DNA of 64,000 nt from a virus, in the IMG/VR virus record IMGVR_UViG_3300025785_001096, positions 93,934-157,933 of that record; one strand, 5' to 3'. The notes under the pieces are model-generated. The model saw nothing but the letters and a program-made list of their open reading frames with translations. It was not told the origin of the DNA and searched no databases. The first letter of the stretch is position 1, and each line of letters opens with the position of its first letter. Made by a program: the position numbers and the translations under genes. Below are positions 5,307-48,198 of this stretch, one piece after another.

Positions 5307-5387
5307 ATGACATATTTAGCCTGTTTGATCGCTGTAGCAGTTTTACTCTATGTAATGATAGAGATAAAAAACTGGTTGGATTTTTAA
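5307..5387 (+). CDS. Possible 26-residue membrane peptide
   Basis: MTYLACLIAVAVLLYVMIEIKNWLDF: one hydrophobic helix with a charged tail. ATG 5307 is 5 nt after the TATAAATA box; an in-frame ATG at 5301 overlaps that box. No RBS. Between two RNA features and too short for certainty. Confidence 0.35.
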   Translation: MTYLACLIAVAVLLYVMIEIKNWLDF

Positions 5388-5394
5388 AGAATTG

Positions 5395-5732
5395 TTGTAA
5401 CTCCTTTAGAGTGAAGGCATTGCGGACGTGGGTGCGATTCCCACCACCTCCACCTAAACGTATTGTTGATCTGGGACACGAAGTCGTGCAGTTAGTCTAA
5501 GATCCCATTGTTTAGTGGGTACACAGGGGCAGATCCTGTACAGTATGTTTAGTTGGGGGTGACTAGTTTCGACGTGGTGAGATAGCAACGAAGGCAACAG
5601 GACAGAGCAGTCCAAAAAACTAAAAAAAGTAAACGCAAACGACTCACAGTTCGCATTGGCAGCCTAAGGGCCGCCTAGGGCAGGAAATGCCTCGTAACAG
5701 AAACAACCATTGTGTTGCCTAAAAACAACACC
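5395..5732 (+). ncRNA. ssrA: Circularly permuted (two-piece) tmRNA
   Basis: The acceptor (3') part comes first. It contains GGAC, a T-stem GTGGG (5428-5432)/CCCAC (5440-5444) around loop TGCGATT, then CACCTCC (5445-5451) and discriminator A5452, followed by CCT rather than an encoded CCA. After a ~100-nt intervening segment the coding (5') part begins at 5555: GGGGGTG pairs fully with CACCTCC (one G-U) and is followed by ACTAGTTTCGACG, the tmRNA D-arm-like signature. The tag frame follows at 5635. A 6-bp hairpin GTGTTG/CAACAC near 5712-5731 and a terminator end the unit. This order is the permuted ssrA layout known in alphaproteobacteria, cyanobacteria and some betaproteobacteria. Outer ends are approximate. 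Confidence 0.88.
5635..5667 (+). other. tmRNA tag reading frame ANDSQFALAA-stop
   Basis: The resume codon GCA at 5635 is followed by AAC GAC TCA CAG TTC GCA TTG GCA GCC and TAA. The tag ANDSQFALAA keeps the AND start and ALAA end of bacterial SsrA tags; the ALAA end is the classical ClpA/ClpX degron. Confidence 0.88.
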
Positions 5733-5734
5733 TT

Positions 5735-5759
5735 AAACCCCCTGAAAATGGGGGTTTTT
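5735..5759 (+). terminator. Rho-independent terminator of tmRNA
   Basis: Stem AAACCCCC/GGGGGTTT with loop TGAAAAT, ending in T5. It directly follows the tmRNA coding piece. Confidence 0.9.
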
Positions 5760-12463: not shown

Positions 12464-13297
12464 ATGAAAATAAATGTAATATCTGACCTCCACCTAGAAT
12501 TCAGCGACCTTACACTACCCGGCGGTGATGTGTTGATCCTCAGCGGCGACGTTATGGAAGCTCGAAAATTCAAACGCAATCAGTACGATCCAATGAACGT
12601 ACTGTTACCACACGAAGATGCTCACAAGCGTCCAGACCGACACTATCGTTTTATTATCGAAGAGTGCTCGGCCAAATACCGTGAAGTTATTTACGTTATG
12701 GGCAATCACGAGCACTACGGTTTCCAGTTTCAAAAGACCTGGGCACATATCAATAGTCAATTGCCTGACAACGTACACCTGTTGGAACGTGAAACCTTGA
12801 CCATTGATGATGTGACTTTCGTTGGGTGTACTCTATGGACAGATATGAACCGAGAAGATCAACTTACTATGTATCATATGCGGTCAATGATGAACGATTA
12901 CAAACAGATTACCATGTTCAACGAAGCCAAAAACATTTATCACAGACTTACTCCCGAGCGTACTGTGGAAGAGTTTTATAAGAGCCGCGACTATATCAAG
13001 TTGGTTGTAGAAGGCAAACCGGATCAGAAGTTTGTGGTGGTAACACATCATTCGCCTTGCAAGGCCAGTACCCATCCGCGTTACATTCACGATACCTTGA
13101 TGAATGGTGCTTACAGCAGTGACTTGTCGGAATTTATTCTAGACCATCCGCAGATTCGGGTGTGGACTCACGGCCATACACACGATCCGTTTGACTATCA
13201 GGTAGGTGAAACCAGAGTCATCTGCAACCCACGCGGCTACAAAGGCTACGAACAACGTGCTGAAGATTTTGATCCCACATACGGATTTGAAATTTAA
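12464..13297 (+). CDS. Calcineurin-like metallophosphoesterase
   Basis: 277 residues. Metal-binding motifs in order: SDLHLE (D8, H10), LSGDV (~27-31), YVMGNHEH (~82-88), THHSP (~190) and HGHTHDP (~235). Complete for the family, which hydrolyses phosphoesters such as cyclic nucleotides, nucleotides or nucleic-acid ends; the substrate here is unknown. Expressed from a promoter that leaves no leader. Confidence 0.88.
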   Translation: MKINVISDLHLEFSDLTLPGGDVLILSGDVMEARKFKRNQYDPMNVLLPHEDAHKRPDRHYRFIIEECSAKYREVIYVMGNHEHYGFQFQKTWAHINSQLPDNVHLLERETLTIDDVTFVGCTLWTDMNREDQLTMYHMRSMMNDYKQITMFNEAKNIYHRLTPERTVEEFYKSRDYIKLVVEGKPDQKFVVVTHHSPCKASTHPRYIHDTLMNGAYSSDLSEFILDHPQIRVWTHGHTHDPFDYQVGETRVICNPRGYKGYEQRAEDFDPTYGFEI

Positions 13298-13311
13298 TTT
13301 TACCAAAAGAC

Positions 13312-13340
13312 TAGACAAATCCTTTCTATGCGTATATAAT
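13312..13340 (+). promoter_or_regulatory. Promoter upstream of zinc-finger gene
   Basis: TAGACA, 17 nt, TATAAT (13335-13340). Leaves a ~70-nt leader with RBS AAGGAT before ATG 13419. Confidence 0.65.
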
Positions 13341-13418
13341 TGATACTAATAGAGCATAAGTAAAAGTATATGATTGCTCTAATATAGTAGTCTAACTAAA
13401 TGCTCTAAAGGATAAGCG

Positions 13419-13775
13419 ATGGCTGGTGTTTTTCAATGTTTGAACTGTGGTAGAGATAACCCTGTGCGTGGTGCAAATTATTCCAACAAATATTGTAATA
13501 ATTTTTGTCAACAACAGCACAGGAAAACTCTCTTAGCGGAAAAGCGTATTGCGGAATGGCGGTCAGGTTGCGGACTATATGTTTGGAAAGAAGTTCCAGA
13601 CTATATCCAAGACTTCTTGATCCAAGAGCGTGGACACCGGTGCGAAACCTGTGGTATTACAGAATGGCAAGGCCAACCTGCTCCACTTACTGTAACGCAA
13701 CGAGACAGTGACACTTATAACAATCAAGAATCAAACTTAGAAGTGACGTGCTATAACTGCAAGTCGCAAAAATAA
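13419..13775 (+). CDS. HNH-like zinc-finger protein, catalytic His missing
   Basis: 118 residues. N-terminal zinc-ribbon-like cysteines (FQCLNCGRD, YCNNFC), then RCETCGITEW and a C-terminal NNQESNLEVTCYNCKSQ that matches the end of HNH nucleases. Where HNH enzymes have HHIDGD this protein reads TQRDSD, so the general-base His is absent. Probably a DNA-binding remnant or a non-catalytic relative. Confidence 0.65.
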   Translation: MAGVFQCLNCGRDNPVRGANYSNKYCNNFCQQQHRKTLLAEKRIAEWRSGCGLYVWKEVPDYIQDFLIQERGHRCETCGITEWQGQPAPLTVTQRDSDTYNNQESNLEVTCYNCKSQK

Positions 13776-39406: not shown

Positions 39407-40026
39407 TGAATACCATTCTTGATTATAAAATTATCTTGATCCTTTTTCATCCACTGACCGGAGGTAATCACCTGGCCAATTTGATTTCTACTTCGGCCCG
39501 AGTAGCAAATCGGGTGCAACATCCTGATTATCTTGCATATATGCTAGAACAATATTCTATTGATAGAAAAACATTTCACGTGACAGAAATTGATAACTGC
39601 GGCATACAAAACATTGCAAAAACGATAGAAACAGTAACAAATTCAACCTTACCATATGTTTTGGCCGGGCATATTGACGAAGCTTATCGAGTTGAACAGA
39701 AAGTACAATCTTTGGGCCCTATCAAGTATATAAGATTGCACGATTTTATTTTGCCCAACATAGTTAAACAAAAAATTGATATTCCGGATTTGTTGTCTTG
39801 GTTGTACAGCGACGAAATAGTGGACAAACTATTTGACACCAACGATACTGTGGACATAAGTTTAACCAATTTGTTTTCAAATGACATTGCTCCGGTTGTT
39901 AATAAACTGAATAACGTGTTACAATTAGACCTAGATTTGGCATTTTGCCAACAACTTCATGATCTTTGGTTACCAGTGGTATCGCAAAGAATGCAAACAA
40001 ACAAAATAAAGGCTCTACGCATATGA
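39406..40026 (+). CDS. Sulfotransferase-like protein (tentative)
   Basis: 206 residues from ATG 39406; an upstream in-frame ATG at 39388 overlaps the divergent gene. The N-terminal ILILFHPLTGGNHLANLIS looks like a degenerate PAPS-binding 5'-PSB loop (strand-x-x-x-SGGNxLxxLI), and later GPIKYIRLHDF matches the strand before the 3'-phosphate site. More AT-rich than neighbours. Could also be an unrelated P-loop protein. Confidence 0.5.
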   Translation: MNTILDYKIILILFHPLTGGNHLANLISTSARVANRVQHPDYLAYMLEQYSIDRKTFHVTEIDNCGIQNIAKTIETVTNSTLPYVLAGHIDEAYRVEQKVQSLGPIKYIRLHDFILPNIVKQKIDIPDLLSWLYSDEIVDKLFDTNDTVDISLTNLFSNDIAPVVNKLNNVLQLDLDLAFCQQLHDLWLPVVSQRMQTNKIKALRI

Positions 40027-40973
40027 AACGTTTTTTAGCTTTGCTGTTATTATTACCTGTTGTTGCCTTGGCTTGGCAACCCGAACGGTCTGTTATATCC
40101 GTTGTTGGATTTGCTCCTGGAGCCGGCAACGAGCTGGCGTTTAGGCAAGCCAGTGCTATTGTTACAAAAAACAATCCTAAAATCTCTTTTGTAATAGAAA
40201 ATCGACCCGGTGCCGATTCGGTGGTGGCGCAAAATCATATGTTAACCGCCCCTCCTGATGGTTATACCTTAAGTATACCCAGTCATATGAGTTTGTTTGT
40301 AACCAACGATATATGGCAACGAGACATTAAAAAGTTTCAGTACAACAGTTTTGTCAATGTAGTTACCTTGGGTAAAAGCCCGTTGGCTGTTGTAACAACT
40401 GCAAAAAGTGTAATTGCCACCCCAGAAGAATTCACAGCACTATTAACCATGGGCTATCGTCCAGTCAATATAGCCATTGGTGGCGGAGCACATCAAATGG
40501 CCTATGAATATATTATGTGGCGAGTCAACGGCAACCGCGAGCAGGTTAAAATGATTCGCTATCCCGGACCACTACAGGCTGTTACTGCTGTTGCTAGTGA
40601 GCAGACAGAGTTTGGAATTATGCCTATTGCTGTTGCTCGTCCTTTGATCGAAGCCGGCCGGGTTAAACTAATTGGCCTAACTACCAATAACACTATGGGC
40701 GGTATGCCTACTATGGCCCGTGCTGTACCTGGACTCAATGTGTCAGCCGGATGGATGATAAGTTTACCGCCCAATACACCCCGAGACATAGTCGACTGGT
40801 ATCAACGAGAATTCAGTCGTGCTATCAAGAGCCGAGAGTATCAGGAATGGGCACGAGCCAACTATGTGTATACTGTCGACTCTGAACTAACATCAGCCGG
40901 TGTGCAACATTACGCAGAAGAATTACGCCGAACATTTGAACCAATAATTCCACACGTAAGTCGAGAACAATGA
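40023..40973 (+). CDS. tctC: Tripartite tricarboxylate transporter binding protein TctC (copy 1)
   Basis: 316 residues from ATG 40023 (ATGA overlap). Signal peptide MKRFLALLLLLPVVALAW, then the TctC/BugT fold: VGFAPGAGNELAFRQAS, IENRPGADSVVAQNHM, PPDGYTLSIPSHM, AIGGGAHQMAYEYI. Periplasmic capture of carboxylates and other small anions for TctAB. Family members usually have 295-325 residues, so it is intact. Confidence 0.9.
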   Translation: MKRFLALLLLLPVVALAWQPERSVISVVGFAPGAGNELAFRQASAIVTKNNPKISFVIENRPGADSVVAQNHMLTAPPDGYTLSIPSHMSLFVTNDIWQRDIKKFQYNSFVNVVTLGKSPLAVVTTAKSVIATPEEFTALLTMGYRPVNIAIGGGAHQMAYEYIMWRVNGNREQVKMIRYPGPLQAVTAVASEQTEFGIMPIAVARPLIEAGRVKLIGLTTNNTMGGMPTMARAVPGLNVSAGWMISLPPNTPRDIVDWYQREFSRAIKSREYQEWARANYVYTVDSELTSAGVQHYAEELRRTFEPIIPHVSREQ

Positions 40974-41584
40974 AATATATTTTTTTAGCAGGAGTACCAG
41001 GTTCTAAATGGTCCAGTGTTGCACGAAACATCTACTACAGCAACAGCATTGATCGTTCTGACTACAGTGAGGATAGAGTCTATTCACACTCGGCCAGCGG
41101 TAGCCTAGCGCCTATGCACGTGGGTGCTTACTGGGATCCAGGTATGGAGTTTGGCAACTGGTTTGATCGGTTAGACCAACACAGCCAATTGGAATGCGAA
41201 GCAGAATTTGATAGGCCGTTTACAGGCACTGGTATACGTATTATCAAAAGCCACGTGTTTTGTTATTACCTGAATTTTTTAAAACGCACCTGGCCTGATT
41301 GCCCGGTTGTATTGGTACACCGCGGTGATGATGCTAGCCTGGGCTGGTGGGTCAAGTGTGGGCATTTCGATATCAAATATCCCAACTACAAGCCCTACTA
41401 CAAAGATTTAAAAAATATGGCTGTGGAAATAGCCCGACAAAACGCTGCAATGCGACCGCAATGGGAACACGCCAGTTTTGTACACAACAACTTGGACCTT
41501 TGTGAGCAACTGGGCATTGAGCCACCGCCCGCCGAATACCGACAGAACTACGCAGAACATAAAATACGAGTAAAAATACTATGA
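40970..41584 (+). CDS. Sulfotransferase-like protein
   Basis: 204 residues; ATGA overlaps at both ends. YIFLAGVPGSKWSSVARNIY is a P-loop-like 5'-PSB motif at residues 3-22; IRIIKSHVFCYYLNFLKRTW and CPVVLVHRGDDASLGWW resemble the sulfotransferase 3'-PB strand (vvlVRnPxD.x.S). Similar proteins occur in marine phages. Acceptor unknown. Confidence 0.65.
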   Translation: MKYIFLAGVPGSKWSSVARNIYYSNSIDRSDYSEDRVYSHSASGSLAPMHVGAYWDPGMEFGNWFDRLDQHSQLECEAEFDRPFTGTGIRIIKSHVFCYYLNFLKRTWPDCPVVLVHRGDDASLGWWVKCGHFDIKYPNYKPYYKDLKNMAVEIARQNAAMRPQWEHASFVHNNLDLCEQLGIEPPPAEYRQNYAEHKIRVKIL

Positions 41585-42309
41585 GCAATATACCTGAAAT
41601 AGATTGGAAGGGCAGTCGTTGGAAAGGCACCAAGGCCATGAGCCAATGGCACTTTGATACAACACGTCCGCCTGAACCCGGCGTCGACAGTTTTACCTAT
41701 GTTGGCAGATTTGAAGCTGATTTTACCGAAGCCATTGCACAAGGTCTAGTATTGGTCAAACCGACCAGCTGGGCTGACCGTAACAAATACAAAATCAAAG
41801 AAGAATTGTATACTGCCAGTGCCGAAGAAGCAGACTTGATACGTGCTGGCGCTGACCCCAAGATGGAAATTTACAGTCGTAGCAACGCTGGACACATTGG
41901 AAAATTTGCCTTGATCGCTGGGCACCTGGGTATGTCCAAATGCGACATCAACTTTCACAACCAAACCACAGGTCAAATGTTGGTCACACACATCGATAAC
42001 TTTCCCGGTAATCACAGCAGACAAAATTCATTCAAGGTTACCAAATTTGATCAAAACCCCGAGCTGATCAGACGTTTTGTTATTATGTTGGCTGACTGGC
42101 AGTTGGGACAAGTGTTTCAATTGGGCAATGCTATGTGGACACAATGGCGAGCCGGTGATTGCATCACGTGGGAATGGCAAGATATTCCACACGCCACTTG
42201 CAATATGGGTTGGTGGGATAGACCTATGTTGCAGGTCACAGGAAATGTTACTGAAGCCACCAAAAAAATATTGGCCAATGCCGGACCCAATCAAATAATC
42301 ACACTATGA
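41581..42309 (+). CDS. 2-Oxoglutarate/Fe(II) oxygenase-like protein
   Basis: 242 residues. Double-stranded beta-helix layout with a metal triad H137-x-D139 (LVTHIDNF) and H204 (QDIPHATCNMGWWDRP), and a downstream R-P-M-L-Q-V that could hold 2-oxoglutarate. Most like the aspartyl/asparaginyl hydroxylase group. Substrate may be a peptide, a sugar or a small molecule. Embedded by 4-nt overlaps between the sulfotransferase-like gene and PP-loop copy 1. Confidence 0.65.
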   Translation: MSNIPEIDWKGSRWKGTKAMSQWHFDTTRPPEPGVDSFTYVGRFEADFTEAIAQGLVLVKPTSWADRNKYKIKEELYTASAEEADLIRAGADPKMEIYSRSNAGHIGKFALIAGHLGMSKCDINFHNQTTGQMLVTHIDNFPGNHSRQNSFKVTKFDQNPELIRRFVIMLADWQLGQVFQLGNAMWTQWRAGDCITWEWQDIPHATCNMGWWDRPMLQVTGNVTEATKKILANAGPNQIITL

Positions 42310-43538
42310 TAAAACGATCAATTACCAAATTTAACAATGTAAATCTAGAGGAAAATCCCAATCTAGGTTATTACACAGTGGGCGACAGCGTGTACTTCAC
42401 CAAGGTACAGGCCTTGATTGAAGGTACCCGTACCAATCAATTTCCTACCTGGAACTTCAACAACGATGTGTATGGAAAAATGTCCTGGACCCAGGAACCC
42501 GAAGTTGGACTGCTGGATTTGTATCGTATGCGAGCACAACAACTGCGTGACAAATACGACTACATAAGGATAGAATGTTCAGGCGGCAGTGACAGCACAC
42601 AGGCCTTGTTTGCTTTTTTACTTAACGATATACACGTGGACGAAATAGTGTTTCGCTATCCCAAAGCTGGTGAAAAAAATATTCCAGTTGAAAGCAGCAA
42701 TTATCGTTGTGAAAATACCTTGAGTGAAGCTGAACTGGCCACTAGACCTCTGCTGAACTGGGTGGCCACACATCATCCTCAAGTTAAAATTACTGTACAC
42801 GATTACTCGGCTGATATGTTGGTCAACGAAGATAGAGATGAAAGTTGGGTATATAGTGCCAAAGAATTTTTACAGCCCGGGCACGTGACAAAATTTCCCA
42901 ACTACCAAACCATTGAGCACAAACTGTTGGCTGATGCTGGCAAACGCATCTGTGTGTTGTACGGCATCGACAAACCCAAGATGTGTATTAGAGAAAATCA
43001 TTGGTACTTGTATTTTATGGATTTTCAAGCCAACTATGCCAACCCCGATGTGGGCGACTACACCAATATTACCAACGAGTATTTTTTCTGGACTCCGGAC
43101 TTGCCTGAAATCTCGGTCAAGCAAGCACACACTATTATGAACTGGTTCAACAAACCTGAAAATCGTCATATGCAATTCCTAGCACGTTGGCCCAATCACT
43201 CGGTGGCTCAACGTACCACGTATGAAAACCTCATCAAGCCCTTGATATATCCCGACTACGACCCTCTCACATTCCAGGTGGCCAAACCCAGCACAAACTT
43301 TTACAGTGAAATGGACTACTGGTTCTATGAAAATTTCAAGGATCACAAACTGTATCAAAGCTGGCAAGCTGGTATAAAATTTGTTGAAGGACAAATTGAT
43401 CCCAAGTATTTTAACAAACAGTTTGGCCGTGTGGTCAGCTTTGTGGGTTTCTTGAGCCCGTTCTACTATCTCGGTGATGCGTTGGCTGACACTAATGCCA
43501 AGCAGACGTTTGCAGTACAAGTACACGATCGGTTTTGA
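42306..43538 (+). CDS. PP-loop ATPase (asparagine-synthase-like), paralogue 1
   Basis: 410 residues. A ~85-residue N-terminal segment (NLGYYTVGDSVYFTKVQALI, LDLYRMRAQQLRDKYD) precedes the PP-loop SGGSDS at 92-97, then DIHVDEIVFRYPKAGEKN, TVHDYSADML and VLYGIDKPKM. PP-loop enzymes adenylate a carboxyl or carbonyl group before amide, thio or amino transfer; no glutaminase domain is present. Close paralogues at 43538 and 46942. Confidence 0.8.
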   Translation: MIKRSITKFNNVNLEENPNLGYYTVGDSVYFTKVQALIEGTRTNQFPTWNFNNDVYGKMSWTQEPEVGLLDLYRMRAQQLRDKYDYIRIECSGGSDSTQALFAFLLNDIHVDEIVFRYPKAGEKNIPVESSNYRCENTLSEAELATRPLLNWVATHHPQVKITVHDYSADMLVNEDRDESWVYSAKEFLQPGHVTKFPNYQTIEHKLLADAGKRICVLYGIDKPKMCIRENHWYLYFMDFQANYANPDVGDYTNITNEYFFWTPDLPEISVKQAHTIMNWFNKPENRHMQFLARWPNHSVAQRTTYENLIKPLIYPDYDPLTFQVAKPSTNFYSEMDYWFYENFKDHKLYQSWQAGIKFVEGQIDPKYFNKQFGRVVSFVGFLSPFYYLGDALADTNAKQTFAVQVHDRF

Positions 43539-44809
43539 TGAGCAAAATAGAATTGACCAGTCACGCTGATGTGACATTTGAGCCCAACAAAAAGCTGGGT
43601 TATTATTTGTTGGGCGACAAAATCTACTACAACAAGTTTCAAGCCTTGTTGGACGAAGCACGTCAAACTGAACACACCGTCAAGTGGTTTTTCAATGATG
43701 TGGATTTTGCACGAGCTCGTTGGACCGAAGAGCCCGAAGAGGACATACGCGAACTGTATCGCCAACGTGCCCAACAACTACGCGACAAGTACGACTGGAT
43801 ACGGGTAGAAGCCTCGGGTGGTGCCGACTCAACCACTGCGGTGTTTGCATTCTTGCTCAACGGCATACACCTAGACGAAGTCATATTCCGCTATCCCAAG
43901 GCCGGTGAAAAAAACGTAGTTACTGGAGCCGGTGATCTCAGTTGCGAAAACACACTGAGCGAATGGCAATTTGCAGCCAAACCGTTGTTTGACTGGATTG
44001 CCACACATCATCCCAGTACCAAAATTACCTTTCACGACTACAGTGAAAATCTCCTAGCTGATGAGAATCACAGAGATGAATCGTGGATTTTCCGTACCAG
44101 ACATTTTTTACAGCCTGGGCACTATACCAAGCATACCAATCTGTTGCCCGAGCATCAACGCATTGCTGATCAAGGACTGCGTATGTGTGTGCTGTACGGC
44201 ACAGACAAGCCCAAGGTCTGTATCAAAGACAACAAGTTCTGGATTTACTTTGTTGATGCGCCCACAGGCGAAAACGATCCGTACTTTGGCCGATATACCA
44301 ATATGACCAACGAGTATTTTTACTGGTCACCAGACGCCACTCGTATGCTGGCCAAGCAAGCACACCTGATCAAGCAGTGGGCCGAAATGCCGGCCAATCA
44401 CAAAATGCAGAATCTGTTGCGTTGGCCCAACAACAGCTTTGCTACCAGAACAATGTACGAGCAATTTGTCAAAGCCATTATATACCCAGATTATGACAGC
44501 AACACTTTTCAAGTGGTAAAAAGTACCAACAACATCTACAACGAAATGGATCACTGGTTTCATACCAACTTCAAAGGCACACGCCTGTACGAAACCTGGG
44601 AAGCCGGCGTCAACTATTTGTTGACCAATGTTGGCGCACAGCACGTGGGAATCAAAAAAGGTGTGGCCACAGATCTTACAGTATTTCAAAGTGCCTTTTA
44701 TTACATAGGCGAATGTGATATTCCTGTTGTCACCCCTTTGGTCAATCCCAAACCCGATAAAACTGCTACCTACAAGCACGTTTTGAACGGTAAATTATCA
44801 ATTTATTAA
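43538..44809 (+). CDS. PP-loop ATPase, paralogue 2
   Basis: 423 residues from ATG 43538 (TGATG overlap). PP-loop ASGGADSTTAVFAFLLNG near residues 90-105, HLDEVIFRYPKAGEKN, FHDYSENLL, VLYGTDKPKV. About as similar to copy 3 as to copy 1 by eye. Ends before the structured leader of the TRAP-like gene. Confidence 0.8.
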   Translation: MSKIELTSHADVTFEPNKKLGYYLLGDKIYYNKFQALLDEARQTEHTVKWFFNDVDFARARWTEEPEEDIRELYRQRAQQLRDKYDWIRVEASGGADSTTAVFAFLLNGIHLDEVIFRYPKAGEKNVVTGAGDLSCENTLSEWQFAAKPLFDWIATHHPSTKITFHDYSENLLADENHRDESWIFRTRHFLQPGHYTKHTNLLPEHQRIADQGLRMCVLYGTDKPKVCIKDNKFWIYFVDAPTGENDPYFGRYTNMTNEYFYWSPDATRMLAKQAHLIKQWAEMPANHKMQNLLRWPNNSFATRTMYEQFVKAIIYPDYDSNTFQVVKSTNNIYNEMDHWFHTNFKGTRLYETWEAGVNYLLTNVGAQHVGIKKGVATDLTVFQSAFYYIGECDIPVVTPLVNPKPDKTATYKHVLNGKLSIY

Positions 44810-44815
44810 CACCGT

Positions 44816-44823
44816 CATAAATA
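44816..44823 (+). promoter_or_regulatory. T4-late-type promoter CATAAATA
   Basis: CATAAATA immediately after the PP-loop 2 gene; a start ~7 nt downstream would give a ~150-nt structured leader to ATG 44983. Confidence 0.6.
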
Positions 44824-44825
44824 TC

Positions 44826-44970
44826 TATGCAACGCCGGTATATGCCGACGTCGGACTTAACATTGACGCCTAGGGTAGTGAAACCCTTTTACTAGTGTGA
44901 TACACCTAGAACGCCGATTCCCGTAAGTAGCACACGCTACAAGCCTTAAACAAAAAAACTTTTGCAAAAG
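44826..44970 (+). ncRNA. Structured 5' leader (candidate RNA regulator)
   Basis: Non-coding, with a perfect palindrome CCGACGTCGG (44845-44854), hairpin AGGGT/ACCCT (44872/44883), a CTAGTGT/ACACCTAG bulged hairpin (44892-44909), GTAGC/GCTAC (44927/44936), and CTTTTGCAAAAG (44960-44971) just before the translation start. The string ACGCC recurs three times. No known riboswitch recognised. Confidence 0.5.
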
Positions 44971-44982
44971 GTAATTTTTAAA

Positions 44983-45462
44983 ATGAAAACAACAACAATT
45001 CGCTGGGTTATTGCTCACGAGCCGTTAGATCTATTCTTACGTGCCGCTAAGGATTTCCAAGACTATTTGAATGCAACACAATCTGTAGAAAAAATTGAAG
45101 TAGAAGTAATGACATTGGGCGAGTACTCTGCCAAGTACAAGAACGGTGCTCCTGTAACCAAACACGATCTATTAGATCTAATGGAATCAGGCGAAATCGA
45201 AATGAGCCAAATGTACACAACTTGGTTAGCTGAAAAGTATGACCACGATATGTTAGCTCTAGAAATGCCATTCTTGTTTGAAAACCACGACCACGCTACT
45301 CGCGTGTTAGAGGGTGAAGTTGGTGAGTTCTTGCTAGACAAGATCACCGAATCAGGCAACGTTCGTGGTATGGCTTTCACATACTCAGGCGGTTTCCGTA
45401 ACGTATTAAGCAGCAAGAAAGTTGAATCACTAAAAGGATTAACTGGTGAAGATCAGAACTAA
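44983..45462 (+). CDS. TRAP/DctP-like binding protein, N-terminal part (frameshifted)
   Basis: 159 residues from ATG 44983. TIRWVIAHEPLDLFLRAAKD, EMPFLFENHDHATRVLEGEV and MAFTYSGGFRNVLSSKKVES follow the DctP family closely up to SLKGLT, then stop 5 codons later. The continuation (VKIRTNRNPVAQETFKALG) is in the +1 frame in the next reading frame. Unlike true DctP there is no signal peptide, so it would be cytosolic or virion-borne. Late promoter and structured leader. Confidence 0.75.
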   Translation: MKTTTIRWVIAHEPLDLFLRAAKDFQDYLNATQSVEKIEVEVMTLGEYSAKYKNGAPVTKHDLLDLMESGEIEMSQMYTTWLAEKYDHDMLALEMPFLFENHDHATRVLEGEVGEFLLDKITESGNVRGMAFTYSGGFRNVLSSKKVESLKGLTGEDQN

Positions 45463-45940
45463 TCGTAATCCGGTAGCTCAGGAAACTTTCAAGGCGTTGG
45501 GCGTTGATGCGTCCGACATACACATTTGCGAAATCGAAGATCTTGCACCACACATCAAAGCAGGTGAGTGTGATGCAGGCGAAGGAGTTTACAGCCGTGT
45601 TTATCCGTTGGGACAGGACGAAGTTACAGAATCTGTTATCGACAGCAAACACAGCTTGTTCTTGACTACCATGATTATCGGCGACAAATTTTTTAAAAGT
45701 TTGAGCCCAGAAGTACGTGCTATTATCAAAGAAGCAGCCATAGTAGCCGGGCGCAAAGAGCGTTTAAAAACAATTGAGGATGGCGAAGAAGCCAAAGCCA
45801 AATTGATCGCCGAAGGTGTCAACATTCACGATTTAACCGAAGAAGAACTGGCTGAGTGGAAAGAAAAGTCTCAAGTGGTCTATGACAAATTTGAACCAAC
45901 TTTTACTCCTGGTCTAATCGACAAAATCAAACGCAGTTGA
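45446..45940 (+). CDS. TRAP/DctP-like binding protein, C-terminal part (frameshifted)
   Basis: 164 codons from GTG 45446, overlapping the upstream frame by 17 nt. It starts exactly at the DctP motif lkGlKIR...pvaqetfkALG, then GECDAGEGVYSRVYPLGQ, LTTMIIGDKFFKSLSPEVR, the family's C-terminal helices. No RBS, so it is probably translated, if at all, by frameshifting, or the split is a sequence error or mutation. Joined length (~320) is normal for DctP. Confidence 0.7.
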   Translation: MKIRTNRNPVAQETFKALGVDASDIHICEIEDLAPHIKAGECDAGEGVYSRVYPLGQDEVTESVIDSKHSLFLTTMIIGDKFFKSLSPEVRAIIKEAAIVAGRKERLKTIEDGEEAKAKLIAEGVNIHDLTEEELAEWKEKSQVVYDKFEPTFTPGLIDKIKRS

Positions 45941-45951
45941 TTTAACCAAAT

Positions 45952-45993
45952 AAACGGACAGGTATTTACAGCCTGTCCGTTTTTCTTTATAAT
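45952..45993 (+). promoter_or_regulatory. Terminator hairpin carrying a promoter -35 in its loop
   Basis: 11-bp stem AAACGGACAGG/CCTGTCCGTTT (45952-45982) plus T tract ends the TRAP-like gene. The loop holds TTTACA (45965-45970), and 17 nt on lies TATAAT (45988-45993), a promoter for the TctC gene at 46028. Confidence 0.8.
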
Positions 45994-46027
45994 TACAATA
46001 CAACCTCAATAACCTAGGATTTCAACA

Positions 46028-46942
46028 ATGAAAAAGATTCTCGCCCTATTGCTGTGCGCTTTTGCACTATCTGCAACAGCTAAAGAAACAGTAACAATCA
46101 TGTACGGCTTTAGTCCAGCCGACACCATGGCCAACTACAGCCGCACACTGGCCGAAGAAGCCAACCGGATTCAAGACAAGTACACATTTGTGTTTGATAC
46201 CAAACCTGGTGCTGGCAATAGTATTGCAGCCAACTATGTGTTGAAAACACCAAACACCATTTTTGCCACATCGGGCGCATTTTTTGTACGACCAAACTTT
46301 TATCCCAACGAAAGCTACGATGTGCAGGCATTCCAGGAAATTCTACCACAATGTAATGCACCAATGAGCATTGCCAGTGTCAAATACAAGAGCTGGAAAG
46401 AAGTGCCTGCCAATGCACCAATTACCGTTGCCACCAGTGGACTGGGTGTAGTCAGTCATTTGACAGCGTTGCAAATACTAAAGAAATATCCCAATGGCAA
46501 AGTTATTCCGTTCAAGTCAACCACAGATGCACTGGTATCTACTGTGGCTGGTCAAACAGATTTTGCTGTAGGCTTTCTAGGCGACCACGAAAAGTGGACC
46601 GATCCTGATGGCAAAGTGCGAGTCACTATTCTAGGCACATCAGGTCCCAAACCAGTCAACGGTCACCCCAGCCTGGTCAGTGCTGGATTTGACAAGATTT
46701 TGGCATCCACCGACAATCCACATCAATTGATGATTCCAGTAACTACACCCAAGGCGCAGGCCGACGAATGGCGCAAGATCCTGTTCAAAGCTGCCAATAG
46801 CAAATCAGTGCGTGATGCTTACGCAGTGGATCACTGCGGTATACTAGATCGTATGGAAGACAAAGACATTCAGCCTTGGTTCCAGGCACAAAATGCCATG
46901 TGGTCCAAGCTCACAGTCGGTGTCAAACTAGACAACAAATAA
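46028..46942 (+). CDS. tctC: TctC-family binding protein (copy 2)
   Basis: 304 residues. Signal peptide MKKILALLLCAFALSATA, then IMYGFSPADTMANYSRTLAE, DTKPGAGNSIAANYVL, GLGVVSHLTALQILKKY. Same fold as copy 1 but only distantly similar, so ligands may differ. RBS is weak (AACCTAGGA). TAATG overlap to PP-loop 3. Confidence 0.85.
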   Translation: MKKILALLLCAFALSATAKETVTIMYGFSPADTMANYSRTLAEEANRIQDKYTFVFDTKPGAGNSIAANYVLKTPNTIFATSGAFFVRPNFYPNESYDVQAFQEILPQCNAPMSIASVKYKSWKEVPANAPITVATSGLGVVSHLTALQILKKYPNGKVIPFKSTTDALVSTVAGQTDFAVGFLGDHEKWTDPDGKVRVTILGTSGPKPVNGHPSLVSAGFDKILASTDNPHQLMIPVTTPKAQADEWRKILFKAANSKSVRDAYAVDHCGILDRMEDKDIQPWFQAQNAMWSKLTVGVKLDNK

Positions 46943-48198
46943 TGAATCCGTACGGAATTGAACAAAATCCCAAGCTGGGCTATTACAAGGTAGCCGATCA
47001 GGTTTTTTACAGCAAGCCCGAAGCCTATATCTATGCTACCAATATTGGTATGGACCCAGTGTGGAATTTCAACGCTGTAACCTATGCCAAGACCCAGTGG
47101 AACGTTGAACCTGAGCTGGACATACGTGAGCTGTACAAAATGCGAGCACAGCAGATTCGTGATCGCTATGACTGGATACGTGTGGAAGCATCAGGTGGTG
47201 GTGACTCAACCACGGCTATTTTCAGTTTCTTGCTGAATGGTATACACCTGGACGAAGTCATATTTCGTTATCCCAAGCAGGGTGAAAAAGGAGTCAGTAA
47301 TGATCCTTTCACAACCAATCCCATTAATACCTTGAGTGAGTGGCAGTTTGCGGCTCGCCCACTGTTGGATTGGATCAAAACGCACTATCCCAAAACTATC
47401 TGCACAGTACACGACTATTCAGAGGATATGCTCAAAGAAGAAGGTACCAGAGATGAGTCGTGGGTGTTTACTACCAAAGACTGGTTCCAACCCGGGCACG
47501 GCAGCAAACACACACACTTTGGCACAAAGGAACACAGAGATCTAGCCGAATCGGGCAAACAGATTGCTGTGGTGTACGGAGTAGACAAACCCAAAGTGGC
47601 TTTGGTTGACAACGAATGGTACAGCTACTTTATTGACTTACACGCCAATCACGGCAATCCAGTCAGCAACGGGCACGACAACATTACCACTGAGTTGTTT
47701 TACTGGACACCAGACTTGCCTGAGATTTCAGTCAAACAGGCACACCTGATTCGTCGCTGGTTTGATATGCCACAGAACCATCACCTGCGTCACTTGGTCA
47801 ACGAACAAGATCCCAATCAGCGTACTGCTTATGAATTTATTGCCAAGAGCATTATATACCCAGATTATGATCTGCAGACCTGGCAAACTGCCAAACCCAC
47901 CAACAGTTTTTATAACGAAATGGACTATTGGTTCTTTACCAATTTCAAAGATACCAACCTGTACAATGCCTGGGAACAAGGTCTCAAATTCTTAACCGAC
48001 AAAATCAATCCCAAGTATTTTTATCGTCAATTAGGCGAACCAGTGGGACTGACTATGCAACGCAGTCCCTACTATCACATTGGTACTGCTGCAATTTCTG
48101 ACTCAGCACCGGCTGTGCCCAACCGTGATTATATGCAAAAGAAACAGGTTGATGTGGCCCTGGTCAAAAATAAAAAGTTTACCACCGTTAAAATCTAA
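46942..48198 (+). CDS. PP-loop ATPase, paralogue 3
   Basis: 418 residues from ATG 46942. NPKLGYYKVADQVFYSKPEA, PP-loop ASGGGDSTTAIFSF (~87-100), HLDEVIFRYPKQGEKG, TVHDYSEDML, VVYGVDKPKV. Co-translated with TctC copy 2, repeating the TctC plus PP-loop pairing. Confidence 0.8.
   Translation: MNPYGIEQNPKLGYYKVADQVFYSKPEAYIYATNIGMDPVWNFNAVTYAKTQWNVEPELDIRELYKMRAQQIRDRYDWIRVEASGGGDSTTAIFSFLLNGIHLDEVIFRYPKQGEKGVSNDPFTTNPINTLSEWQFAARPLLDWIKTHYPKTICTVHDYSEDMLKEEGTRDESWVFTTKDWFQPGHGSKHTHFGTKEHRDLAESGKQIAVVYGVDKPKVALVDNEWYSYFIDLHANHGNPVSNGHDNITTELFYWTPDLPEISVKQAHLIRRWFDMPQNHHLRHLVNEQDPNQRTAYEFIAKSIIYPDYDLQTWQTAKPTNSFYNEMDYWFFTNFKDTNLYNAWEQGLKFLTDKINPKYFYRQLGEPVGLTMQRSPYYHIGTAAISDSAPAVPNRDYMQKKQVDVALVKNKKFTTVKI

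Follow-up and report, generated by a model that had tools for sequence, protein, structure and literature searches.

A phage gene cassette pairing a predicted PP-loop enzyme family with transport receptors, one of them lacking an export signal

Transport receptors by definition function outside the cytoplasmic membrane, and genes for uptake are commonly carried by phages. Carbapenam synthetase, beta-lactam synthetase, LarE and GMP synthetase are all ATP-pyrophosphate enzymes, and MqnA, MqnD and Thi5 are cytosolic proteins related to binding proteins but different from them in function. Binding-protein relatives that work in the cytosol in other roles have been described (PMC9602780), and tctA has been reported from phages of SUP05 (PMC4164917). 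Here we analysed a 64,000-nucleotide stretch of viral DNA (the window; IMG/VR record IMGVR_UViG_3300025785_001096, positions 93,934 to 157,933), in which three PP-loop genes lie among genes for receptors of the TctC and DctP types (Table 1).

Table 1. Features of the cassette, numbered from the first nucleotide of the window.
Feature	Position	Strand	Remarks
TctC-type periplasmic receptor 1, signal peptide	40023..40973	+	Pfam TctC E 1.3e-13; leader MKRFLALLLLLPVVALA
Conserved sulfotransferase-like protein	40970..41584	+	GxPGSKWSS, IIKSH and VHR motifs in 9 aligned relatives
2OG-Fe(II)-oxygenase-like protein	41581..42309	+	H137xD139...H204...R214 invariant over 14 relatives
PP-loop protein 1	42306..43538	+	410 aa; predicted model pLDDT 91.5; own clade, support 100
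PP-loop protein 2	43538..44809	+	423 aa; own clade, support 100
DctP N-terminal half, no signal peptide	44983..45462	+	Pfam DctP positions 22-135, E 2e-14
DctP C-terminal half	45446..45940	+	Pfam DctP positions 138-284, E 8.5e-27; GTG start, AAAGGA before
Terminator-like hairpin, 12 pairs, then T-rich tail	45952..45982	+	Pattern scan only
Promoter-like site TTTACA-17-TATAAT ahead of TctC 2	45965..45993	+	Pattern scan only, 11/12 consensus positions
TctC-type periplasmic receptor 2, signal peptide	46028..46942	+	Pfam TctC E 1e-4, below family cut-off
PP-loop protein 3	46942..48198	+	418 aa; own clade, support 97

The initial annotation had described three PP-loop reading frames with shared motifs and a common N-terminal part, and these were confirmed together with their coordinates. 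Relative to copy 1, copies 2 and 3 showed 49% and 51% identity. All three contained SGG(S/A/G)DS, DE(V/I)xFRYPKxGEK, HDYS and YGxDKPK, as well as a conserved part of ~85 residues before the PP-loop. None of the three matched a Pfam family, and no Pfam domain, including the class-II glutaminase domain, was found at a meaningful score in the family members searched (n = 70), in agreement with the annotated lack of a glutaminase domain. The SGGxDS ATP motif was intact in 207 of 215 full-length family members, and a dead ATP site, which the annotation had named as grounds for refutation, was rejected. Structure prediction gave a confident model of PP-loop protein 1 (folding without an alignment was useless, pLDDT 37), and Foldseek revealed a HUP-type alpha/beta core matching carbapenam synthetase, beta-lactam synthetase, LarE and GMP synthetase (probability 0.97–1.0 for LarE, GMP synthetase and carbapenam synthetase). 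These matches were partial, covering the ATP core only, with TM-scores of about 0.2–0.35. The label 'asparagine-synthase-like' is thus apt for the fold, where carbapenam and beta-lactam synthetases were the best matches to the PP-loop core, and does not hold beyond it. Sequence searches of the PDB with the family returned nothing credible, and a second PP-loop family (A4) was linked to the cassette family around the motif only. The family looks like an undescribed group of ATP-using enzymes.

At least 549 relatives were found in viral contigs from uncultured phages. Among 299 bacterial genomes a single one clearly held the family, on a 3 kb phage-like contig, and a bacterial or prophage family is not supported; annotated phage records yielded zero relatives at the limits used. 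Phylogenetic analysis placed each window copy in a separate clade together with copies from other phages, which makes them old paralogues, and a recent tandem triplication was rejected because every clade includes other phages. A fourth, divergent copy was present elsewhere in the same virus record (C1:61790-62815). Distinct roles of the paralogues, proposed in the annotation as different acceptors, fit the three separate clades.

Conservation of the gene neighbourhood was marked. Over 82 loci the commonest gene clusters were PP-loop (82), DctP (60) and TctC (53), the next occurring in 25. A TRAP DctP or TctC gene lay nearby in 100 of 111 non-redundant PP-loop genes, and neither receptor was near the other 11. 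Both receptors were located within 3 genes of the PP-loop gene in 50 cases, compared with a shuffled mean of 11.4 and a maximum of 21. Linkage was also recovered when seeded from DctP (38/44; random genes 35%) or from TctC (43/49), and DctP was linked to two PP-loop families in different phages. The neighbourhood is therefore strongly conserved in related phages rather than scattered, so that the second refuting condition of the annotation also came out in its favour, and the original observation on the PP-loop genes holds more strongly than was claimed. No description of the cassette was found in the open-access literature.

The receptors had been annotated as TctC and TRAP proteins interleaved with the PP-loop genes. 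The first TctC was confirmed by Pfam. The second had a weaker Pfam match, but a profile built from its relatives matched solved structures of a TTT receptor (E 1.1e-25) and of BugD (E 2.7e-21). The window contained no permease gene, and annotated phage records contained zero TctC relatives at the limits used. The TRAP receptor, on the other hand, proved to be a single DctP spread over two open reading frames. Splits of this kind were found in the window and in 14 other non-redundant cases, with four types of junction: in some the two genes overlap, either by the 4 bases ATGA or by a longer stretch in the +1 relation, and in others they are separated by 3 or by 18 bases. The second start fell at the same protein position across the splits, the gaps followed a stop codon, and no slippery site was shared by the 15 non-redundant splits. 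The four junction types argue against programmed frameshifting, and both this and assembly error were rejected on the junction geometries and the unshared slippery site. The second DctP of the virus record is unsplit (C1:3988-4947) and has no PP-loop neighbour. No DctQ or DctM permease gene was recognized among the annotated neighbours of the genes examined, and the 8 DctP matches in annotated phage records were all distant.

Signal peptides were detected in 0 of 151 full-length phage DctP proteins and in 137 of 139 TctC proteins, using a simple test that flags 24 of 29 bacterial DctP proteins. Phage DctP has lost its export signal and should therefore reside in the cytosol. The initial annotation had overlooked both the missing signal peptide and the split gene. 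These data also bear on whether TctC and DctP merely aid host nutrient import as ordinary auxiliary uptake proteins, with the PP-loop genes adjacent by descent. Phage-borne uptake genes are common, and TctA genes lie beside the cassette in loci L020 and L073. The tctA precedent from SUP05 phages points the same way (PMC4164917). We nevertheless consider this explanation improbable, given that signal-peptide loss is consistent (151/151), that a DctP without a signal peptide cannot act as a periplasmic receptor, and that DctP is linked with two PP-loop families.

Phage DctP formed one deep clade apart from the sampled bacterial DctP, and residues including W9, H13, Y135, R205, H223, E259, R260 and Y300 were invariant over 73 phage proteins. 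A separate deep clade with invariant residues, together with the precedent for cytosolic binding-protein relatives with other functions (PMC9602780), might indicate that DctP without its signal peptide has enzymatic activity of its own, the binding-protein fold having been retained in the cytoplasm and turned into a catalyst that acts before or after the PP-loop step. This is unlikely: a catalytic motif was not recognized, ordinary TRAP receptors in the PDB are still matched by the profile (E about 1e-43; 3.9e-43), and the carboxylate-binding Arg column is kept in 58 of the 73 proteins.

The genes preceding the first PP-loop copy had been read as one 2OG-oxygenase-like and two sulfotransferase-like genes. 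The oxygenase candidate has the HxD...H iron triad and distal Arg of 2OG-Fe(II) oxygenases, but its library matches were insignificant and the fold is without library confirmation. The sulfotransferase candidate adjoining it is conserved, with a weak match to Pfam Sulfotransfer_3 (E 0.045) in one relative; the other (39421-40026) had no support. Further genes in related cassettes encode a stand-alone glutamine amidotransferase, TctA or oxygenases. The amidotransferase, of class I, is encoded beside the cassette in 7 loci, so that glutamine-derived ammonia could still supply the PP-loop enzyme; no such gene was present in the examined stretches of this virus record, itself a fragment. Variable partners and paralogues would fit an arms race, and a soluble binder inside the infected cell that takes no part in transport would soak up its ligand like a sponge. 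The cassette might accordingly be an interference module, with cytosolic DctP sequestering a host metabolite or defence signal that the PP-loop enzyme modifies or inactivates. We regard this as unlikely, as TctC, working outside the membrane, would play no part and no defence-related neighbours were identified.

We favour, with a probability of roughly 0.4, a phage-encoded small-molecule module for carboxylate capture, cytosolic holding by DctP and ATP-dependent activation by the PP-loop enzyme. In the periplasm TctC would capture an organic acid and feed a host TctAB-type permease, a few phages bringing their own TctA. In the cytosol the signal-less DctP, here as two separately translated halves, would hold the acid or its product as a soluble carrier, and presumably acts on the same compound as the PP-loop enzyme. 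The latter is predicted to use ATP to convert the carboxylate to an acyl-adenylate, which would then react with a nucleophile (an amine, ammonia or sulfur), as happens in its fold relatives. Tailoring or supply of the reaction may be the part of the oxygenase-like and sulfotransferase-like proteins, joined in relatives by the separate amidotransferase; the paralogues of the PP-loop enzyme would differ in their partners, and the module would presumably benefit the phage. An import-and-activation pathway, as in the initial annotation, is plausible and in line with the TctA genes of some cassettes; its substrate, probably a carboxylate, its reaction and its product are predictions. It has also to be considered that the parts (a synthase, periplasmic capture and a cytosolic binder) would suit signalling, with the PP-loop enzyme making a diffusible compound, TctC recapturing it for re-entry, DctP sensing it and separate paralogue clades giving separate signals. 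With no linked regulator identified and no output domain on DctP, this appears very unlikely.

Beyond the capture-and-activation module, we tentatively suggest, with the odds somewhat against it, that phages have turned a transport receptor into a cytoplasmic protein dedicated to a PP-loop synthetase, as its carrier, its sensor or its partner in catalysis. Such a phage-specific system would be metabolism or signalling without a cellular counterpart, with the split form a natural two-piece binding protein. The presence, in hundreds of viral contigs, of a deep, phage-associated DctP clade without an export signal next to an undescribed ATP-dependent enzyme family suggests that infected cells carry out unknown chemistry. 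The cassette proteins look soluble and intact, making ligand and reaction directly testable, and a receptor that is naturally divided between two genes, with several junction types tolerated, is also relevant to protein folding and to the design of sensors.

Compared with known systems, the phage PP-loop protein shares its ATP core with CarA and beta-lactam synthetase of the asparagine-synthetase superfamily, its best solved fold matches, but at 10–12% identity, with superposition limited to the core (TM-score about 0.25–0.35), differing N- and C-terminal parts and no N-terminal glutaminase-type domain. Asparagine synthetase likewise has an N-terminal class-II glutaminase domain that the phage proteins lack. 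With LarE sulfurtransferase and the GMP synthetase ATPPase domain a PP-loop core of ~155 residues is matched, and zero domains outside it are common. The TctC proteins resemble TTT receptors and Bug proteins (BugD, Bug27, terephthalate-binding protein; profile E 1e-16 to 1e-25), signal peptide included, but are phage-borne and usually without TctAB. Phage DctP matches the whole fold of the TRAP receptor by sequence (Pfam PF03480; nearest PDB 4p47, 4xfe, 4n8y) and mostly retains its carboxylate-binding Arg, but lacks the signal peptide, forms its own clade, is split in the window and was not seen with DctQM among its annotated neighbours. While the consulted passages of the SUP05 phage report mention neither a cytosolic receptor nor a PP-loop partner, the phages that it describes carry, as here, a TTT component and a 2OG oxygenase of unknown role (PMC4164917).

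All open reading frames named in the initial annotation were found at their window positions, and every motif that it had listed for the three asparagine-synthase-like (PP-loop) proteins is common to all three, which share ~50% identity. Two virion structural genes and an endolysin gene follow PP-loop 3. The whole virus record (157,933 bases; C1 in its own coordinates) holds further copies of PP-loop and of DctP, the TRAP-type receptor. The 176-base non-coding gap between PP-loop 2 and DctP (44807-44982) was without an Rfam match. A permuted tmRNA of betaproteobacterial type (window ~5341-5758; tag ANDSQFALAA) was also present in this phage genome and hints at a betaproteobacterial host.

Receptor, PP-loop and neighbouring features of the window and of the same virus record (C1)
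Feature	Position	Strand
TctC receptor (TTT-type)	40023-40973	+
Sulfotransferase-like	40970-41584	+
2OG-oxygenase-like	41581-42309	+
PP-loop 1	42306-43538	+
PP-loop 2	43538-44809	+
DctP N half	44983-45462	+
DctP C half	45446-45940	+
Terminator-like hairpin	45952-45982	+
Promoter-like site	45965-45993	+
TctC receptor, second	46028-46942	+
PP-loop 3	46942-48198	+
PP-loop copy 4	C1:61790-62815	
Second DctP	C1:3988-4947	

Pfam searches with the window PP-loop copies matched no family; among 70 family members, QueC was the most frequent weak hint (best E 0.017). In IMG/VR, a narrow search pattern picked up 78 relatives, and a wider pattern at least 549. Bacterial occurrence amounted to one genome_contigs record and 2/299 genomes (single phylum), one of the two being the same 3 kb phage-like contig as that record and the other a marginal, partial match (E 6e-4). 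Of the 215 full-length proteins, 207 carry SGGxDS and the remaining eight SGGxDG or SGGxDC. An AlphaFold model based on 70 aligned members had a mean pLDDT of 91.5. In a Foldseek search of the PDB the top hit was carbapenam synthetase (E 2e-4), followed by beta-lactam synthetase, LarE and GMP synthetase; with TM-scores of ~0.2-0.35, the similarity covers the ATP core and does not extend over the whole protein. Viral models gave matches over most of the length to six proteins, all uncharacterised and from uncultured Caudovirales. A tree built from 110 members by a quick method, with SH-aLRT support values, placed the window copies in three separate clades (support 100, 100 and 97), each also holding copies from other phages; they are therefore old paralogues.

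A second PP-loop family (A4) is very distant from the first, profile comparison joining the two over 47 columns around the motif only. Its proteins have ~416 residues, and SGGxDS occurs in 51 of the 52 members of the A4 cluster. Its genes adjoin signal-less DctP at loci L130 (5265-9869), L149, L155 and L187, and the PP-loop gene itself is repeated up to three times per locus. A4 loci additionally encode proteins that we read, from sequence motifs only, as ATP-grasp-like and desaturase-like.

PP-loop, DctP and TctC genes form a linked set, or cassette. When every ORF from the first 82 loci was clustered, the largest groups were PP-loop (82), DctP (60) and TctC (53), the next reaching 25. Around the 111 non-redundant PP-loop genes that had three or more genes to either side (non-redundancy decided by simple sequence keys), both receptors were nearby in 56, TctC only in 24, DctP only in 20 and neither in 11, counting DctP within four genes and TctC within three. 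Both receptors lay within three genes in 50 cases, whereas 500 gene-order shuffles averaged 11.4 and never exceeded 21; since loci were found through seeds and shuffling preserved the gene content of each locus, this and the other linkage figures describe local clustering, not genome-wide enrichment. Immediate DctP or TctC neighbours were on the same strand in 75/79. When the search was seeded with DctP, 38 of the 44 complete loci had a PP-loop gene, in part of the A4 family, within three genes, compared with 35% for genes drawn at random from these loci; seeding with TctC found DctP or a PP-loop gene (either family) nearby in 43/49.

DctP is encoded by two ORFs in the window and by one in most relatives. 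A script listed 17 neighbouring pairs, from which one at L009 (C half then extra C half) and one at L136 (C half then next N half) were dropped as not being N-C pairs, leaving 15 splits, the window included. At L009 the additional C half (13159-13665) follows a split pair, giving N-C-C. Junctions comprised 4-base ATGA overlaps, longer overlaps in a +1 relation, a 3-base gap after the stop and an 18-base gap, and the C half started at the identical protein position, M/V-K-(I/L/V)-R, in every split. Varied junctions with a constant C-half start are explained by two separately translated polypeptides, which presumably assemble, and not by frameshifting.

A simple signal-peptide test was passed by 0/151 full-length phage DctP and by 137/139 phage TctC, a leader being visible in both exceptions; the same test flagged 24 of 29 bacterial DctP, and among the five not flagged a leader was seen by eye in three. 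For every one of the 147 phage DctP in which the motif was found, the nearest upstream Met is 3-7 residues away from the first conserved Trp. By sequence, phage DctP should thus be cytosolic, and this predicted location weakens plain nutrient uptake as the role of the cassette. When 73 phage DctP were placed in a tree together with the 29 bacterial proteins that matched best, all from one phylum, the phage sequences formed a single group (support 100/100). The alignment column of the Arg by which TRAP receptors bind carboxylates is occupied by Arg in 58 of the 73 phage sequences. The second DctP of this record (L204, 2927-5540) has no PP-loop neighbour and is flanked by a 2OG-oxygenase-like gene (cluster read by eye) and a redoxin-like relative; DctP pairs with a redoxin-like gene also at L014, L047, L050, L052 and L058.

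Genes for TctA, a TTT permease, lie near cassettes at L073 and L020 (Pfam) and L074 (cluster member), and a fatty acid desaturase gene (Pfam) adjoins that of L073. Related cassettes also have a 2OG-Fe(II) oxygenase family and a redoxin-like protein nearby, both under Pfam cut-offs. Class-I glutamine amidotransferase genes occur near cassettes of seven related loci, some near-identical; none was found in this virus record, itself possibly a fragment. Beside PP-loop copy 4 (L203, 9030-13061; G000:C1 ~63029-67060) are CsgF-like, CsgG-like and curlin-repeat-like secreted protein genes, identified by eye; CsgF and CsgG are known from pelagimyophages (PMC7029224).

In the leading reading, TctC would capture an acid, a TctAB-type permease would import it, cytosolic DctP would hold it and the PP-loop enzyme, its ATP motif intact, would activate it. 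The gene families, their linkage, the location of DctP as read from sequence, its split gene and the intact ATP motif are observed, whereas the ligand, the reaction, cooperation between DctP and the PP-loop enzyme, and a benefit to the phage are inferred. An enzyme derived from DctP, a sponge or interference module, and a signalling role are rivals that sequence does not separate from this import-and-activation route.

For SUP05 phages, TctA and 2OG oxygenase genes have been noted, their role there being unknown (PMC4164917). Binding proteins have known cytosolic relatives (PMC9602780). The open-access literature yielded no account of the PP-loop family, the signal-less phage DctP clade, split DctP or their linkage.
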